NCBI GenBank assembly: GCA_016780245.1
Contig: JADHME010000005.1
Location: forward strand, 1-48,519
Direction: 5' to 3'
Source of the DNA: Flavobacteriaceae bacterium
Lineage (GTDB): Bacteria; Bacteroidota; Bacteroidia; Flavobacteriales; Flavobacteriaceae
Length of the DNA: 48,519 nt
Shown here piece after piece: positions 21,640-30,383 of the stretch (within the stretch, counting starts at the first letter, position 1; each line of letters opens with the position of its first letter). The notes under the pieces are model-generated. The model did no database searches. It was not told where the DNA came from and was given only the letters and a program-made list of their open reading frames with translations. The position numbers were made by a program, and so were the translations under genes.

Positions 21640-21646
21640 TGTAAAA

Positions 21647-21697
21647 CAGAGGAAGGATTTGACTGATTGCAACCTCTCAAAAAAATTGCTAAAGCAG
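21647..21697 (+). ncRNA. SAM-II-type riboswitch aptamer
   Basis: Stem P1 is AGAGG (21648-21652) paired with CCTCT (21673-21677). The enclosed loop GATTTGACTGATTGCAA (21656-21672) matches the SAM-II loop pattern (GAUUUrA, then UUGCA before the closing stem). The 3' strand GCTAAAGCAG (21688-21697) carries the conserved GCUAAA. CTG in the loop (21663-21665) can pair with CAG (21695-21697) to close the pseudoknot. The gene context, metK followed by methionine synthesis genes, is right for an S-adenosylmethionine sensor. The aptamer ends 51 bases before the metK ATG, further than is usual for SAM-II. Made by eye from the remembered consensus, not by a covariance search. Confidence 0.78.
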
Positions 21698-21716
21698 TAA
21701 TTCTTTTACAAGCAAT
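21685..21716 (+). promoter_or_regulatory. Alternative hairpin competing with the riboswitch pseudoknot
   Basis: ATTGCT (21685-21690) can pair with AGCAAT (21711-21716). This would take up the GCT of the conserved GCTAAA strand and so exclude the ligand-bound pseudoknot. It could be the ligand-free state, although the stem is only six pairs and AT-rich. A T-rich run follows at about 21721-21731, too imperfect to call a terminator. Confidence 0.35.
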
Positions 21717-25237: not shown

Positions 25238-25665
25238 TGGCAATTTACTTAGATAGAGTTAACGACAAATACCTATTTGAATTATCAAATGAAAATGGAC
25301 ATAAAGTCCACTTAGATAGAAAATACTCACCAGACTATCAAGTTCAAGGAGCTAGCCCTATGGAGCTTCTTCTTATGGGAGTTGCAGGCTGCAGTAGTAT
25401 AGATATCATTTCTATTTTAGAAAAACAAAAGTTAGATCCTAAATCATATAAAATGGAAGTCGAGGGTGAAAGAGAATCTGAACCAGGTAGACCATATAAA
25501 AGGATTCATGTAAAACTATTGATTGAAGGAGAAATTCCAGGTGATAAAATAATTCGTGCAGCATCACTAAGTTTTGATAAATATTGTTCCGTTTCAAAAA
25601 ATCTTGAGAAGTCAACTTTGATAGAGCACTCAATTTATCTTAATGGAGAGCTAATTAAAAAATAG
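25237..25665 (+). CDS. OsmC family peroxiredoxin-like protein
   Basis: OsmC/Ohr-family proteins reduce organic hydroperoxides through two cysteines. The 142-residue product has both: Cys52 in GVAGCSSID and Cys117 in FDKYCSVSKNLEK. MELLLMG (42-48), a helix leading into the first Cys, also fits. It shares one base with the metX stop, making it the fourth gene of the SAM-controlled operon. Why a thiol peroxidase-like protein belongs there is unclear; a role in sulfur or thiol metabolism is inference. Confidence 0.9.
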   Translation: MAIYLDRVNDKYLFELSNENGHKVHLDRKYSPDYQVQGASPMELLLMGVAGCSSIDIISILEKQKLDPKSYKMEVEGERESEPGRPYKRIHVKLLIEGEIPGDKIIRAASLSFDKYCSVSKNLEKSTLIEHSIYLNGELIKK

Positions 25666-25674
25666 TCTAAAAAG

Positions 25675-25705
25675 TTTGATATTTTAAATACCTATTATAC
25701 TTTTG
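25675..25705 (+). promoter_or_regulatory. Consensus promoter of the aromatic amino acid operon
   Basis: TTTG (25675-25678), a spacer of 19 bases and TACTTTTG (25698-25705) form a full match to the Bacteroidota promoter. The -7 element ends seven bases before the leader-peptide ATG, so the leader would be translated from the very 5' end of the RNA. Confidence 0.75.
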
Positions 25706-25712
25706 TTAGGTT

Positions 25713-25772
25713 ATGAAACAAAGTTTTAATTTTTATTATACATATTACTTCTCTCATCAGAAGGCAGGATAA
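25713..25772 (+). CDS. Phe/Tyr-rich leader peptide of the aromatic operon
   Basis: A 19-codon reading frame encodes MKQSFNFYYTYYFSHQKAG. Seven of the 19 residues are Phe or Tyr, six of them within nine codons (25725-25751), exactly the end products of the downstream operon. It lies between a consensus promoter and a strong terminator just before pheA. The last codons and stop overlap one strand of the predicted antiterminator. Stalling at Phe/Tyr codons would keep that strand free, while a ribosome at the stop codon would cover it. This is the logic of classical amino acid attenuators. Found by reading the gap; not tested against homologues. Confidence 0.85.
   Translation: MKQSFNFYYTYYFSHQKAG
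25748..25763 (+). promoter_or_regulatory. Pause (1:2) hairpin of the attenuator
   Basis: CTTCT (25748-25752) pairs with AGAAG (25759-25763) around a six-base loop inside the leader-peptide gene, just after the Phe/Tyr codons. Its position corresponds to the 1:2 pause hairpin of classical attenuators. Five pairs only, so moderate strength. Confidence 0.5.
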
Positions 25773-25808
25773 TTATATATAATTCAATTAAAATATAATA
25801 GTCCTGTC
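25763..25808 (+). promoter_or_regulatory. Antiterminator (2:3) pairing of the attenuator
   Basis: GGCAGGAT (25763-25770) can pair over eight positions, two of them G-T, with GTCCTGTC (25801-25808), the 5' half of the terminator stem plus two loop bases. The intervening 30 bases are nearly all A and T. The pairing excludes the terminator, and the upstream strand is the last leader codons and the first base of the stop. Confidence 0.65.
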
Positions 25809-25827
25809 AAATCAGGACTTTTTTTTT
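25800..25827 (+). terminator. Rho-independent attenuator terminator before pheA
   Basis: AGTCCTG (25800-25806) pairs with CAGGACT (25813-25819) around TCAAAT, followed by nine T residues (25819-25827). The ATG of pheA is only two bases after the T run. A terminator in front of, not behind, an operon means that transcription is stopped early under some condition. Confidence 0.9.
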
Positions 25828-25829
25828 AT

Positions 25830-26639
25830 ATGAAAGTGTCAATACAGGGAATTAAAGGTTCTTTTCACCATATGGTGGCAAATGAGTATTTTAAATCTTT
25901 TGAATTACTAGAATGTTCAACCTTTGAAAATTTAGTTAAATCGATTGATAAAGAAGAATCTGACTTTGGTGTCATGGCAATTGAAAATTCAATTGCTGGA
26001 TCAATACTTCCAAATTATGCACTAATTGATGAGTATAATCTTTGTATAACAGGAGAACATTATTTAAATATAAATCATAATTTAATGTGTCTGGCTGGGC
26101 AAAAAATTGATGAAATATATGAAGTGCAATCACATCCAATGGCTTTACTTCAATGTTCCAAATTTTTTAACAATTATCCTCATATTAAACTTATTGAGAG
26201 CGAGGATACAGCTTTATTTGCAAAAAAAATCAAAGATGAAGAAATGCTAGGTGTTGGTGCCATTGCAAGTAAAGATGCTTCAGAAATATATAATTTAGAA
26301 ATTCTTAACGAATCAATACAAACTATTAAAAATAACAAGACAAGATTTGTGATTCTTGAAAAAAAGAAAACCAATGATGAATTCAATAAAGCTGCACTAA
26401 AGTTTATTCTTGATCATAAAAGAGGAAGTTTAGCTTCAGTTTTAAATTTGATGAGTGATTGTAGTCTAAATCTTACTAAGATTCAATCTTTACCAGTAAT
26501 ACAAACACCAGGTAAATACGCTTTTTTTGTTGATATTACTTTTAACTCAGTAGATAACTACAATAAAGCAAAAAAAATTATTGAGATTATGGCTCAAGAA
26601 TTTAAAGTTTTAGGTGAATATAAAATTAAAGAATTATGA
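25830..26639 (+). CDS. pheA: Prephenate dehydratase
   Basis: The enzyme turns prephenate into phenylpyruvate, committing it to phenylalanine. The 269-residue product has the dehydratase domain (about 1-180: QGIKGSFHH, GVMAIENSIAGS, EVQSHPMALLQCSKF, and the NKTRFVIL motif whose Thr-Arg-Phe is catalytic), then an ACT domain (about 187-265: RGSLASVLNLMSD, NLTKIQSLPV, YAFFVDI) that normally binds Phe for feedback inhibition. It is the first structural gene after the attenuator and overlaps tyrA by four bases. No chorismate mutase domain is attached; that activity lies in the aroF-like fusion downstream. Confidence 0.95.
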   Translation: MKVSIQGIKGSFHHMVANEYFKSFELLECSTFENLVKSIDKEESDFGVMAIENSIAGSILPNYALIDEYNLCITGEHYLNINHNLMCLAGQKIDEIYEVQSHPMALLQCSKFFNNYPHIKLIESEDTALFAKKIKDEEMLGVGAIASKDASEIYNLEILNESIQTIKNNKTRFVILEKKKTNDEFNKAALKFILDHKRGSLASVLNLMSDCSLNLTKIQSLPVIQTPGKYAFFVDITFNSVDNYNKAKKIIEIMAQEFKVLGEYKIKEL

Positions 26640-27484
26640 ATGTAGGAGTAATTGGCTTGGGATTAATAGGAGGGTCTATAGCTTTAAAGATTAAGGAAAT
26701 TGATACAAATACAGTCATTTATGGACTTGATAACGATATGGATTCAATGAGTTATTCTTTAGGCAAAGGTATTATAGATAAAAAATTAGATATCAACTCA
26801 ATTGATAACTTAAAATATATTTTTATTGCAATACCTGTAGATGCTATCAAAAATGAAATAGAGTCAATATTGAATAAAATCTCAAATAACACTTTGGTTG
26901 TTGACTTGGGTTCAACAAAGTATGAAATATGTAAAAAAGTAGTAGATCATACTAATAGAAAAAATTTCCTTGCAGCTCATCCAATAGCTGGTACTGAGTT
27001 TTCAGGTCCTTCAGCTGCAACAAAGAATCTTTTTGATAATAAGGTTTTAATTCTCTGTGAGACAGAAAAAACTGATCAAGATTTATTATCAGATGCTTTA
27101 AAAATTTTTGATTTAATGAATATGAATATTATTAATATGGACTCTATTGAACATGATAAGCATATAGCGTATGTGTCTCATCTTTCTCATATTTCGTCTT
27201 TTATGTTAGGAAAAACTGTAATGAACAAAGAAGAAGATCAAGATACAATTTATGATATGGCTGGAAGTGGATTTGAGTCTACTGTAAGGTTAGCAAAAAG
27301 TTCTCCTCAAACATGGGCATCAATTTTTGTAGAAAATAAAAACAATATTGTTGAATCACTTAACGAGTATATCTCCAATATTAATAATTTTAAAATTTTA
27401 ATTGAAAACGGTGATAAAGAAAAATTAAGTGCCGAAATGAAAAAAATAAATGGTATTAAAGAAATACTTAACGGAATTAAATAA
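26636..27484 (+). CDS. tyrA: Prephenate dehydrogenase
   Basis: TyrA oxidatively decarboxylates prephenate to 4-hydroxyphenylpyruvate for tyrosine. The 282-residue product has the NAD(P)-binding GLGLIGGS (7-14), DLGSTK (90-95) and HPIAGTEFSGPSAA with catalytic His115. No fused mutase or ACT domain is seen, so control is likely at the level of expression, as the attenuator suggests, or on the DAHP synthase. Coupled to pheA by an ATGA overlap. Confidence 0.94.
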   Translation: MNVGVIGLGLIGGSIALKIKEIDTNTVIYGLDNDMDSMSYSLGKGIIDKKLDINSIDNLKYIFIAIPVDAIKNEIESILNKISNNTLVVDLGSTKYEICKKVVDHTNRKNFLAAHPIAGTEFSGPSAATKNLFDNKVLILCETEKTDQDLLSDALKIFDLMNMNIINMDSIEHDKHIAYVSHLSHISSFMLGKTVMNKEEDQDTIYDMAGSGFESTVRLAKSSPQTWASIFVENKNNIVESLNEYISNINNFKILIENGDKEKLSAEMKKINGIKEILNGIK

Positions 27485-27490
27485 ATAATT

Positions 27491-28573
27491 ATGGAAAATA
27501 AAAAAGAGTTTAGAAGTTGGTTAGACAAAATGAATCTAGGGCACCCGTTGGTTATAGCTGGACCTTGTAGTGCTGAAACTGAAGAGCAAGTTTTAAAAAT
27601 TGCACATGAACTTAAAGATTCAGATGTATCAGCATATAGAGCAGGTATATGGAAACCTAGAACTAGACCTGGTATGTTTGAAGGTGTTGGTGCAATTGGT
27701 CTAAACTGGTTAGAAAAAGTTAAAAAGGAAACAGGTCTTATGATTGCAACAGAAGTTGCAAATTCAGTTCATGTAGATCTTGCACTTAAACATGATGTTG
27801 ATATATTATGGATTGGGGCTAGGTCTACAGTATCTCCATTTATTGTTCAGGAAATTGCAGATGCACTAAAAGGAACTGACAAAATTGTTTTGGTTAAGAA
27901 TCCAGTTAATCCTGATTTAGCTCTTTGGTTAGGAGGTATTGAGAGAATTTACTCTTCTGATATAAACAAAATTGGAGTTATACATAGAGGATTCTCATCC
28001 TATGATAAATCTAAATTCAGAAATAATCCAGAATGGCAAATTGCAGTTGAGCTTCAAAATAATTTTCCTGACCTACCTCTAATATGTGATCCATCTCATA
28101 TTGCTGGAAGAAGAGACTTAATTTTTGATTTAAGTCAATCTGCACTAGATTTAAATTTTGATGGTTTAATGATTGAGACACATTGTGATCCAGATAATGC
28201 TTGGAGTGATGCTGCTCAACAATTAACCCCAAAAAGATTAATTGAAATAATGAAAGATTTAAAAATTAGAGAAAAGACTTCAGAAGTTGAAGCTTATATA
28301 AAAAAACTTAATAATCTTAGATCTCAAATTGATGTTGCAGATCAGAACTTGTTGTCAACATTAGGAAAAAGGATGGAAGTTGCAAAAGAGATTGGTCAGC
28401 TAAAGTCTGATAATAATGTAGCAATTTTACAAAATAAAAGATGGAACGAAATTCTCGGAAAGATGATTTTAGATGGAGAGGAGCATGGTTTAAGTGAAGA
28501 ATTCATTTTAAGAGTTTTTAAAGCAATTCATCAAGAATCAATCAATAATCAAAAAAAAATATTAAATAAATAA
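27491..28573 (+). CDS. Bifunctional 3-deoxy-7-phosphoheptulonate synthase / chorismate mutase
   Basis: The 360-residue product fuses two non-adjacent steps. Residues about 1-265 are a DAHP synthase of the KDO8P-like (AroA beta) class: GPCSAE (24-29), WKPRTRP, GARSTVSPF, VKNPVNPD, HRGF, CDPSHIAGRRD and ETHCDPDNAWSDAAQQL. Residues about 270-350 are an AroQ-type chorismate mutase: LRSQIDVADQNLLSTL, KRMEVAKEIGQLK. The C-terminal mutase supplies prephenate to PheA and TyrA, and in relatives also gives feedback control. It follows tyrA by six bases. Confidence 0.95.
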   Translation: MENKKEFRSWLDKMNLGHPLVIAGPCSAETEEQVLKIAHELKDSDVSAYRAGIWKPRTRPGMFEGVGAIGLNWLEKVKKETGLMIATEVANSVHVDLALKHDVDILWIGARSTVSPFIVQEIADALKGTDKIVLVKNPVNPDLALWLGGIERIYSSDINKIGVIHRGFSSYDKSKFRNNPEWQIAVELQNNFPDLPLICDPSHIAGRRDLIFDLSQSALDLNFDGLMIETHCDPDNAWSDAAQQLTPKRLIEIMKDLKIREKTSEVEAYIKKLNNLRSQIDVADQNLLSTLGKRMEVAKEIGQLKSDNNVAILQNKRWNEILGKMILDGEEHGLSEEFILRVFKAIHQESINNQKKILNK

Positions 28574-28581
28574 TCTATAAA

Positions 28582-29763
28582 ATGTTATCAGAAAAAATAA
28601 AGTCTTTGCCGATATCTCAGACGGTTGCAATGACAGCTAAAGCACATGATTTAAAAAACCAAGGAATAGATGTAATAACTCTAAGTGCAGGTGAGCCTGA
28701 CTTTAATATTCCAGATTACATAAAAGAAGCAGCAGTTGAGGCTATTAACGATAATTATCATAAATATTCTCCAGTTGATGGTTATCTTGATTTGAAAAAA
28801 TCAATTTGTAAAAAATTCAAAAGAGATAATAATTTAGATTATGATGTAGACCAAATAGTTGTTTCAACAGGAGCGAAACAATCAATTGCCAATGTTTGTA
28901 TGTCACTTATAAATAAAGGGGATGAAGTCTTAATCCCTACTCCATATTGGGTAAGTTACAGTGCCATGGTGGCATTAGCCGAAGGAGTACCTGTATTTAT
29001 AAATCCAGAGGAGGACTCAAATTATAAAATTACTGCTCAACAACTTGAATCTGCAATAACAGATAAAACAAAAATGTTAATGCTTAACTCACCTAATAAC
29101 CCAAGTGGATCAGTTTTTACTGAACAAGAATATCTTGAATTTTCAAAAGTTCTTTTGAAGTATCCAAATATAATTATTATATCAGATGAAATTTATGAAC
29201 ACATAAATTATGGAGTAAAATCTGTAAGTTTTGCAAGCATACCTGGAATGTTTGATAGAACAGTTACTGTAAATGGAATTTCAAAAGCTTATGCAATGAC
29301 TGGATGGAGAATAGGTTATTTAGGAGCCCCTAAAGTAATAGCCAAAGCTTGTAATAAAATGCAAGGCCAAATAACAAGTGGAGCAAATTGCATTGCTCAA
29401 AGAGCTACAATTAAAGCACTAGAAGAGTCTCCTGAAAAGATCCAATACATGGTCGACGAATTTAAGATTAGAAGAGATTTTATAATAGATCTTGTAACAA
29501 AAATCAATGGCTTTAATATAAAACAACCTCCTATGGGAGCATTTTATATTTTCCCAGATATCTCAGAATTATTTGGTAAAACGTTTAAAGGTGTAACTAT
29601 CAATGATGCAAATGATTTATCAATGCTTATTCTCGAAAAAGCTCATGTTGCAACTGTTCCTGGGGATGCTTTTGGTTATCATAACTGTATTAGAATTTCT
29701 TACTCAGCTTCAAGAGAACAAATTGAAGAAGCAATAAAAAGAATAAAAGACTTATTATCTTGA
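28582..29763 (+). CDS. Class I PLP-dependent aminotransferase (aspartate/aromatic/prephenate type)
   Basis: The product has 393 residues. AGEPDF (36-41), STGAKQ (95-100), NSPNNPSG (169-176), SDEIYEH (201-207) and SKAYAMTGWRIGY with Schiff-base Lys235 place it in the AspB-type (I gamma) subgroup. In this operon it most likely makes Phe and Tyr from their keto acids, or aminates prephenate, using Glu or Asp. Aspartate aminotransferase activity is also usual for the group. It ends in an overlap with rsmG. Confidence 0.9.
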   Translation: MLSEKIKSLPISQTVAMTAKAHDLKNQGIDVITLSAGEPDFNIPDYIKEAAVEAINDNYHKYSPVDGYLDLKKSICKKFKRDNNLDYDVDQIVVSTGAKQSIANVCMSLINKGDEVLIPTPYWVSYSAMVALAEGVPVFINPEEDSNYKITAQQLESAITDKTKMLMLNSPNNPSGSVFTEQEYLEFSKVLLKYPNIIIISDEIYEHINYGVKSVSFASIPGMFDRTVTVNGISKAYAMTGWRIGYLGAPKVIAKACNKMQGQITSGANCIAQRATIKALEESPEKIQYMVDEFKIRRDFIIDLVTKINGFNIKQPPMGAFYIFPDISELFGKTFKGVTINDANDLSMLILEKAHVATVPGDAFGYHNCIRISYSASREQIEEAIKRIKDLLS

Positions 29764-30383
29764 CTGAAATAGATAAATATTTTCCAAAATTAACTCAAGA
29801 ACAAAAAGAAAAGTACTCTAAACTAGTTCAATTATACAAATACTGGAATTCAAAAGTAAATTTAATTTCTAGGAAGGACATAGATAATCTAGAAATTAAT
29901 CACATTCTTCATTCATTGTCTATTGTAAAAATTGTAAGCTTTAAAGATTCAACATCAGTACTTGATGTTGGAACAGGTGGAGGTCTTCCGGGTATACCTT
30001 TAGCAATTTTTTTCCCAAAAGTTAATTTCACATTAATAGACAGTATTGGGAAAAAAATAAAAGTTGTAAAATCAATATGTAGCGAGTTATCAATAAACAA
30101 CGTAAATGCTATAAATGATAGAGTAGAAAATCATCTAGATCATTATGATTTTATATTATCAAGGGCTGTTACTAGAATGGATAAATTTTATAAACTAGTT
30201 TATAAAAATTTTAGATATGATTCATCAAATAAAATGAAAAATGGAATAATTTCATTGAAAGGTGGTGATTTAGATGAAGAGTTAAAAGATTTCAATAAGA
30301 AAAATATTTATGATATAAATGAATATTTTAATTATGAATTCTTTCAAACAAAAAAGATCATATATATCCCTTTTCAAAAATAA
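29760..30383 (+). CDS. rsmG: 16S rRNA (guanine527-N7)-methyltransferase
   Basis: RsmG (GidB) methylates G527 of 16S rRNA using SAM. The 207-residue product starts at a TTG that overlaps the upstream TGA stop; no ATG lies in frame near it. It has NLISRKD (34-40), the SAM motif VLDVGTGGGLPGIPL (67-81), DSIGKK and SRAVTRMDK. Its place at the end of the aromatic operon appears to be by read-through, not by pathway. Confidence 0.93.
   Translation: MTEIDKYFPKLTQEQKEKYSKLVQLYKYWNSKVNLISRKDIDNLEINHILHSLSIVKIVSFKDSTSVLDVGTGGGLPGIPLAIFFPKVNFTLIDSIGKKIKVVKSICSELSINNVNAINDRVENHLDHYDFILSRAVTRMDKFYKLVYKNFRYDSSNKMKNGIISLKGGDLDEELKDFNKKNIYDINEYFNYEFFQTKKIIYIPFQK

Follow-up and report, generated by a model that had tools for sequence, protein, structure and literature searches.

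Does the 164-nt gap that separates an OsmC-like gene from pheA in a Flavobacteriaceae genome (GenBank assembly GCA_016780245.1, contig JADHME010000005.1, positions 1 to 48,519, this whole 48,519-nt stretch being the window) hold a ribosome-mediated transcription attenuator, and which amino acids would it sense? A preliminary description had placed a promoter, a leader peptide, a hairpin within the leader, an antiterminator and a terminator in this gap and had read them as a classical attenuator. Inspection of the sequence located all of the named elements inside the gap, with promoter, leader, tip hairpin, antiterminator and terminator each confirmed base for base. Relatives conserve the leader frame as well as the terminator and the antiterminator pairing, which strongly supports the reading as a classical attenuator. 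Judged from sequence, we give a probability of about 0.9 to control of the pheA operon by a ribosome-mediated transcription attenuator, with charged tRNA-Phe and tRNA-Tyr as the sensed molecules.

Operon and gene neighbourhood

The gene directly behind the gap, pheA (prephenate dehydratase, 25830..26639, + strand), scored 186 bits against Pfam PDT (cut-off 25.2) and fell below the NCBIfam equivalog cut-off. It overlaps by 4 nt with tyrA (prephenate dehydrogenase, 26636..27484, + strand; NCBIfam PRK08507, 345 bits, cut-off 295), which is followed on the same strand by a DAHP synthase-chorismate mutase fusion (27491..28573; Pfam DAHP_synth_1 and CM_2, both above cut-off) and a class I/II aminotransferase (28582..29763; Pfam Aminotran_1_2, above cut-off) that probably performs the aromatic transaminase step. 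The operon thus covers steps to both Phe and Tyr, and the amino acids coded in the leader are the products of the operon. The next gene, rsmG (29760..30383, + strand; NCBIfam TIGR00138, above cut-off), overlaps the aminotransferase gene by 4 nt and is possibly co-transcribed with the preceding genes.

On the other side of the gap, the OsmC-like gene ends at 25665 on the + strand, co-directional with pheA, and is the last gene of a methionine gene cluster adjoining the putative attenuator. This cluster is headed by a SAM-II (long loop) riboswitch at 21643-21702 (+ strand, 80 bits), 46 nt 5' of metK. Across the whole window, Rfam searches at gathering score returned this SAM-II element and one tRNA only, with no T-box. 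Eight terminator-like sites were found on the two strands of the window, and an aromatic-rich short open reading frame (ORF) precedes only the one at pheA.

Promoter and leader open reading frame

The leader region begins with a TTTG element at -33 (25675..25678, + strand), separated by a 19-nt spacer from TACTTTTG at -7 (25698..25705, + strand), a match to the Bacteroidota TAnnTTTG box, for which both the consensus and the -12 to -5 position were taken from the published F. psychrophilum description (PMC9723704). The TTTG element and its 19-nt spacer are kept in 23/23 genus loci, all of which read TTTG-N19-TAnnTTTG with 6, 7 or 9 nt between the last G and the leader ATG, and a perfect promoter with a spacer of 18 to 21 nt was recovered in all 23 versus 1 of 1470 mononucleotide shuffles. 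A generic sigma-70 scan was uninformative (52 sites against 48.5 expected). If the G of the -7 box is placed at -5, transcription is predicted to start at 25710 (+ strand), giving the leader ORF a predicted 5' untranslated region (UTR) of only 3 nt in the window and 2-5 nt in 23/23 genus loci. Outside the genus the implied leader 5' UTR has a median of 14 nt (124 called loci, 109 with a recognisable promoter and 22 with a perfect one), as it does in the class-wide set (26 loci, 21 recognisable and 11 perfect). Leaderless mRNAs make up 5.5% of those reported for F. psychrophilum (PMC9723704).

The leader ORF, MKQSFNFYYTYYFSHQKAG (25713..25772, + strand), runs from an ATG at 25713 to a TAA stop at 25770-25772 and has a counterpart in 147/159 of the relatives' loci. 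Seven of its 19 codons are aromatic (3 Phe and 4 Tyr), and all seven fall in the block F-N-F-Y-Y-T-Y-Y-F (25725..25751, + strand), the putative regulatory codons. Over the 147 leaders (n = 3291 residues), Phe accounts for 23.5%, Tyr for 16.4% (40% together) and Trp for 1.9%, with Phe and Tyr both present in every leader. Within the genus, pN/pS over equal-length pairs is 0.25, a value drawn from codons with a single difference only (123 synonymous and 168 non-synonymous, after omission of 224 codon pairs that differed at more than one site).

Trp codons occur in 63 of 124 non-genus leaders and in none of the 23 genus leaders. An inability of the genus to make Trp is unsupported as the explanation, with PF04715, the TrpE-type N-terminal domain, present in 20/25 genus genomes. 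The domain, which may also catch relatives of TrpE, occurs in 288/299 family genomes and is so nearly universal that its variation is too small to test a link with Trp codons.

Conservation in relatives

PheA searches gave 23 matches in 25 genomes of the genus, 268 in 299 of the family and 99 in 196 of the order. Upstream DNA was examined at 159 loci, comprising 23 from the genus, 116 from other genera of the family and 20 from seven other families of the order; these were mostly the loci with the most similar PheA, so that the family rate may be biased upward. A strict caller required an ATG-initiated ORF, 12-40 codons long and containing no fewer than 6 aromatic residues (20% or more), together with a hairpin and T run located -3 to 60 nt beyond its stop. 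By this definition, leader and terminator were called at 147/159 loci (23/23 in the genus, 115/116 in other genera of the family and 9/20 in other families of the order), while an equally placed aromatic-rich ORF arose in 141/2940 dinucleotide shuffles in which the terminator was kept. A first, looser caller had reached 143/159, missing leaders in which the T run had been taken up into A-T pairs. Loci with the device include those of Gelidibacter mesophilus, Psychroserpens mesophilus, an Algicola metagenome-assembled genome and Leeuwenhoekiella parthenopeia, as well as single-cell and metagenome genomes of the genus.

The strict caller left 12 of the 159 loci uncalled (L078, L079, L100, L140, L141, L148, L149 and L155-L159). 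For L079, L140 and L141, the looser first caller gave a weaker leader of 5 aromatic residues with a terminator. No leader was found upstream of pheA in L155-L157, whose PheA is distant (~30% identity), or in the 500 nt upstream of the retained pheA in L158 and L159, two 0.6-Mb genomes of family f16; regulation was thus apparently lost in both of the very reduced genomes examined. In L041 and L100, inserted repeats containing GTTCGAAGAACGAAAT-like units separate the terminator from pheA. L041 appeared negative in the last 200-500 nt, yet has a leader at -318, and in L100 no leader was seen in the last 200-500 nt before pheA. A search for other attenuators in the window's own genome, which is 74% complete, gave no match to HisG (PF01634) or PF04715, and an ilvB-like gene showed no leader over the 500 nt that precede its matched part, where the upstream frame continues.

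Terminator and antiterminator

An intrinsic terminator with the stem AGTCCTG/CAGGACT (25800..25827, + strand) separates the leader ORF from pheA, with its hairpin at 25800-25819 and a T run to 25827 that counts nine T, including the paired one, and is followed by AT and the pheA ATG at 25830. Its 5' arm is shared with strand 3, GTCCTGTC (25801..25808, + strand), the 3' arm of the predicted antiterminator, whose 5' arm, strand 2, GGCAGGAT (25763..25770, + strand), runs into the leader stop codon. GGCAGGAT and GTCCTGTC form 8 pairs, 2 of them G-U, while in genus members L006 and L012 the antiterminator is imperfect, with 5 uninterrupted pairs. The leader RNA of the window folds better than 199/200 dinucleotide shuffles (z -2.9).

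The terminator core varies by genus (GTCTCG, GTCCTG, GTCCCG, TCCTGA, TCCCGA, GTTCCG, GACCGC and others), and strand 2 tracks these changes. Co-variation was assessed in silico by pairing the leader-stop region of each locus with its own and with other loci's terminator 5' arms, over 139 distinct leaders that are related rather than independent. Because the leader-stop region was picked by position and not by pairing, the comparison is not circular. The duplex of strands 2 and 3 averaged -11.13 kcal/mol with the locus's own partner versus -6.93 kcal/mol with other terminator classes, and none of 10000 permutations came as low as the observed mean, the permuted values averaging -7.69 with a best of -8.42. 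The own duplex beat the median swapped pairing in 136/139 distinct leaders. This co-variation is our strongest evidence for joint evolution of strands 2, 3 and 4 as alternative partners. Conservation in relatives had been named in advance as one test on which the attenuator reading could fail; on sequence, the reading came through it both in the survey (147/159 loci) and here (136/139).

Counted from its first base, the last stall codon precedes strand 2 by a median of 14 nt (5-95% range 10-15), and the stop codon a median of 13 nt downstream of the strand 2 start; in the window, the last aromatic codon, TTC at 25749, precedes the strand 2 start at 25763 by 14 nt. A ribosome is described as covering ~12 nt downstream of its codon (PMC4833913). 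At these spacings, a ribosome stalled at the aromatic codons would stop just short of strand 2 and leave it free, whereas a ribosome at the stop codon would cover it.

The predicted strand 1:2 hairpin

What had been called a pause hairpin, CTTCT/AGAAG (25748..25763, + strand; CTTCT at 25748-25752 and AGAAG at 25759-25763), does exist, and its CTTC/GAAG is kept by RNAalifold in the genus alignment, but in many relatives it is only the tip of a larger strand 1:2 hairpin. In the window, this larger hairpin is predicted at 25723..25794 (+ strand), spanning the codon block and the antiterminator strand, with an energy of -9.0 kcal/mol versus -14.9 kcal/mol in L003, and it is among the weakest of the set (z -1.0; 14/100 codon shuffles fold as well). 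Directly after the leader stop, at 25773-25783, the window reads TATATATAA where L002, L003, L004 and L006 read TATGTATAA; the change accounts for a weaker 1:2 hairpin in the window and is either a real variant or a sequencing error.

Before strand 3 is included, the RNA of genus loci reaches -13.4 kcal/mol versus -6.8 kcal/mol for controls, which are copies with shuffled codons and spacer (z < -2 in 16/23), with corresponding values of -18.9 versus -12.5 kcal/mol at other loci of the order (z < -2 in 78/123) and -20.8 versus -14.7 kcal/mol at class loci (z < -2 in 14/26). Alignment-based comparisons took each 1:2 structure from one member (L030, L045 or L003), which favours it over slid versions. 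With that advantage, the hairpin was 73.5% paired against at most 51.4% when slid in A1, the genus alignment (23 sequences), and 92.4% against at most 59.3% in A2, a family subgroup (39 of 41 sequences, L144 and L145 left out). In A3, a second family subgroup (26 of 27 sequences, L138 left out), 37 cells had changes on both sides, against 21.2 +/- 3.2 in shuffles (0/500 as high). Both-side changes in A2 were no more frequent than in shuffles (200/500), and the 13 both-side cells of A1 did not exceed the slid control (14 at slide -1). Support for the hairpin is clear in A3, confined to the level of pairing in A2 and weak in the genus. Consensus folding gave back the terminator and, of the 1:2 hairpin, the tip but not the whole. 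In L041 and L122, both in A2, a Tyr codon change from TAT to TAC accompanies a Val change from GTA to GTG, turning a U-A pair of the 1:2 hairpin into C-G with the peptide unchanged; in L103, also in A2, a Phe codon takes part in this U-A to C-G change.

In the ribosome-free equilibrium of the window RNA, the antiterminator is favoured over the terminator (0.72 versus 0.21), a preference unique among the 139 leaders and with which the minimum-energy fold agrees. Termination in the absence of translation, which belongs to the classical four-strand design, is consequently doubtful for the window sequence, given this preference together with its weak 1:2 hairpin, and likely in most relatives.

Proposed mechanism and alternatives

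From the parts, conservation, co-variation and geometry observed, we infer a course of events that leads from transcription start through leader translation and stalling to read-through. RNA polymerase would start near 25710, and a ribosome would load the leader AUG at once. With Phe and Tyr plentiful, the ribosome would reach the stop at 25770 and cover strand 2 (GGCAGGAT), whereupon the terminator at 25800-25827 would form and transcription would stop 2 nt before pheA. With either Phe or Tyr in short supply, the ribosome would stall within the block at 25725-25751 and leave strand 2 free to pair with 25801-25808, in which case no terminator would form and the operon would be transcribed.

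Control might instead be mainly translational, the hairpin at 25800-25819 hiding the pheA initiation region until a stalled ribosome opens it, so that transcription need not stop. Such a role would suit the genus, where the terminator starts exactly -30 from the pheA ATG at 23/23 loci and the hairpin, 10 nt before the AUG, is close enough to fall within the footprint of an initiating ribosome. All genus loci nevertheless keep the T run behind the stem, as a terminator should have it, and in other genera the hairpin stands at -32 to -217 from the pheA ATG (calls that we regard as sound) behind the same leader architecture; at such variable distances, hiding the pheA start codon cannot be the shared function. 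We consider mainly translational control improbable, while the hairpin may also hinder pheA translation in the genus, where both effects may coexist.

A still smaller chance attaches to the terminator being switched by some other sensor, such as a protein, a T-box-like tRNA element or a riboswitch, with the leader ORF secondary. The structured 5' RNA before pheA in F. psychrophilum is presented in the published description without a named sensor (PMC9723704), which leaves space for one, but no Rfam family, T-box included, reached gathering score in the pheA leader region, and the aromatic bias, the frame constraint and the spacing from stall to strand 2 all need a ribosome. Least credible, and rejected, is an ordinary terminator of the upstream OsmC-like gene with a fortuitous short frame: that gene is co-directional in the window, but in 23/23 genus loci the gene is separated from the terminator by a perfect promoter and a conserved aromatic ORF, the leader is kept in other genera despite a longest upstream frame that is divergent in 6/10 family loci checked, where the terminator hence does not close that gene, and the co-variation of strand 2 with the terminator would go unexplained.

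Beyond the ribosome-mediated attenuator itself, we put forward, with less than even confidence, that the genus carries a compressed variant of an ancient, Bacteroidia-wide sensor of Phe and Tyr (and of Trp in many genera). In this variant, the near-5'-terminal AUG (5' UTR 2-5 nt, without room for a Shine-Dalgarno site) would place the ribosome directly behind RNA polymerase, and a single hairpin would serve both as terminator and as a block to pheA translation 10 nt before its AUG; tight coupling of the two machines would hence be widespread in a phylum whose translation initiation is not dependent on Shine-Dalgarno sites.

Relation to known attenuators

Classical trp, his and phe attenuators of the Yanofsky type combine a leader ORF rich in cognate codons with mutually exclusive antiterminator and terminator structures. 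The pheA element shares with them the cognate-codon ORF, the exclusive pair of structures and a stop codon overlapping strand 2, and differs in the near-leaderless start of the genus leaders, in an antiterminator strand placed within the ORF or at its end, and in the marginal 1:2 hairpin of the window. By all criteria that sequence can test, save that doubtful hairpin, it appears to be a genuine classical attenuator that would act by switching transcription.

The closest described relative is likely the same element. Guerin et al. (2021) reported 64 structured 5' regions in F. psychrophilum, among other results a 5' element that is conserved before pheA in Flavobacteriaceae, together with hints of attenuation by leader peptides at amino-acid operons of F. 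psychrophilum (PMC9723704). The match is by description: the gene and family are the same, and an expressed, structured region without an Rfam hit is conserved across genera. As described there, the element comes without a leader sequence or sensed amino acids (PMC9723704); added here are the near-leaderless leader ORF in a streamlined genus and the co-variation test. The device is therefore not categorically new, a pheA 5' element and clues of attenuation in flavobacteria being already in print (PMC9723704), and the preliminary remark that no Phe/Tyr attenuator was known in Flavobacteria was too strong. The literature searched yielded no experimental test of a Phe/Tyr attenuator in Bacteroidota.

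Among Rfam models, the gammaproteobacterial pheA leader (RF01859, Phe_leader) was the best sub-threshold match of the window region, aligned over model positions 1-125 of 125 at 22.4 bits, below the gathering score of 55 (E 0.14). The two share a Phe-rich leader peptide, a long hairpin over the codons and a terminator before pheA, and differ in that the window mixes Phe and Tyr codons and has no E. coli-type Phe runs. Relatives scored 30.8 bits (L154) and 25.3 bits (L182), while L030, L045 and L151 gave no Phe_leader match at E up to 1. Other leader models score similarly weakly on relatives, so that the Phe_leader match indicates likeness and not membership.

Amino-acid leaders are not unknown in the phylum, as the Bacteroid-trp RNA motif (RF01692), a Bacteroidetes cis-regulatory RNA named for trp genes (PMC2864571), indicates; it belongs to a different operon, and the window region contains no RF01692 match. 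Leader-peptide-like small ORFs have also been noted in Bacteroides thetaiotaomicron (PMC7366714). In 2010, Naville and Gautheret stated that they knew of no leader-peptide system demonstrated in phyla other than Proteobacteria and Actinobacteria (PMC2965389).

Wider distribution and significance

Coupling between RNA polymerase and the ribosome has, to our knowledge, been little examined in Bacteroidota, and the pheA leader offers a concrete, testable case of ribosome-paced transcription in this phylum. According to a published report, ribosomes in Bacteroidota do not make use of Shine-Dalgarno sequences (PMC9723704). With such a leader, marine flavobacteria of very small genome size could regulate aromatic amino acid synthesis without a dedicated protein regulator, and the leader would provide a ready reporter for Phe/Tyr starvation.

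A search of the class recovered PheA in 79/295 genomes, and an aromatic-rich leader with a terminator was called in 26/40 upstream regions from other families, using a looser caller (5 aromatics) that had no shuffle control for its ORFs; the 14/40 uncalled loci included near misses L186 and L205. That pheA leaders occur across numerous families of a single class suggests an old origin of the mechanism in this class as well. At one locus of the order, L154 (family f13), tandem Phe-rich leaders, MNNLVSTFRFFGFFFFRKEGAMS and MNQNTQQNFSFFGFFFFKWKSEAVD, each with its own terminator, lie 5' of pheA as an apparently doubled attenuator (regions 102-210 and 357-482).
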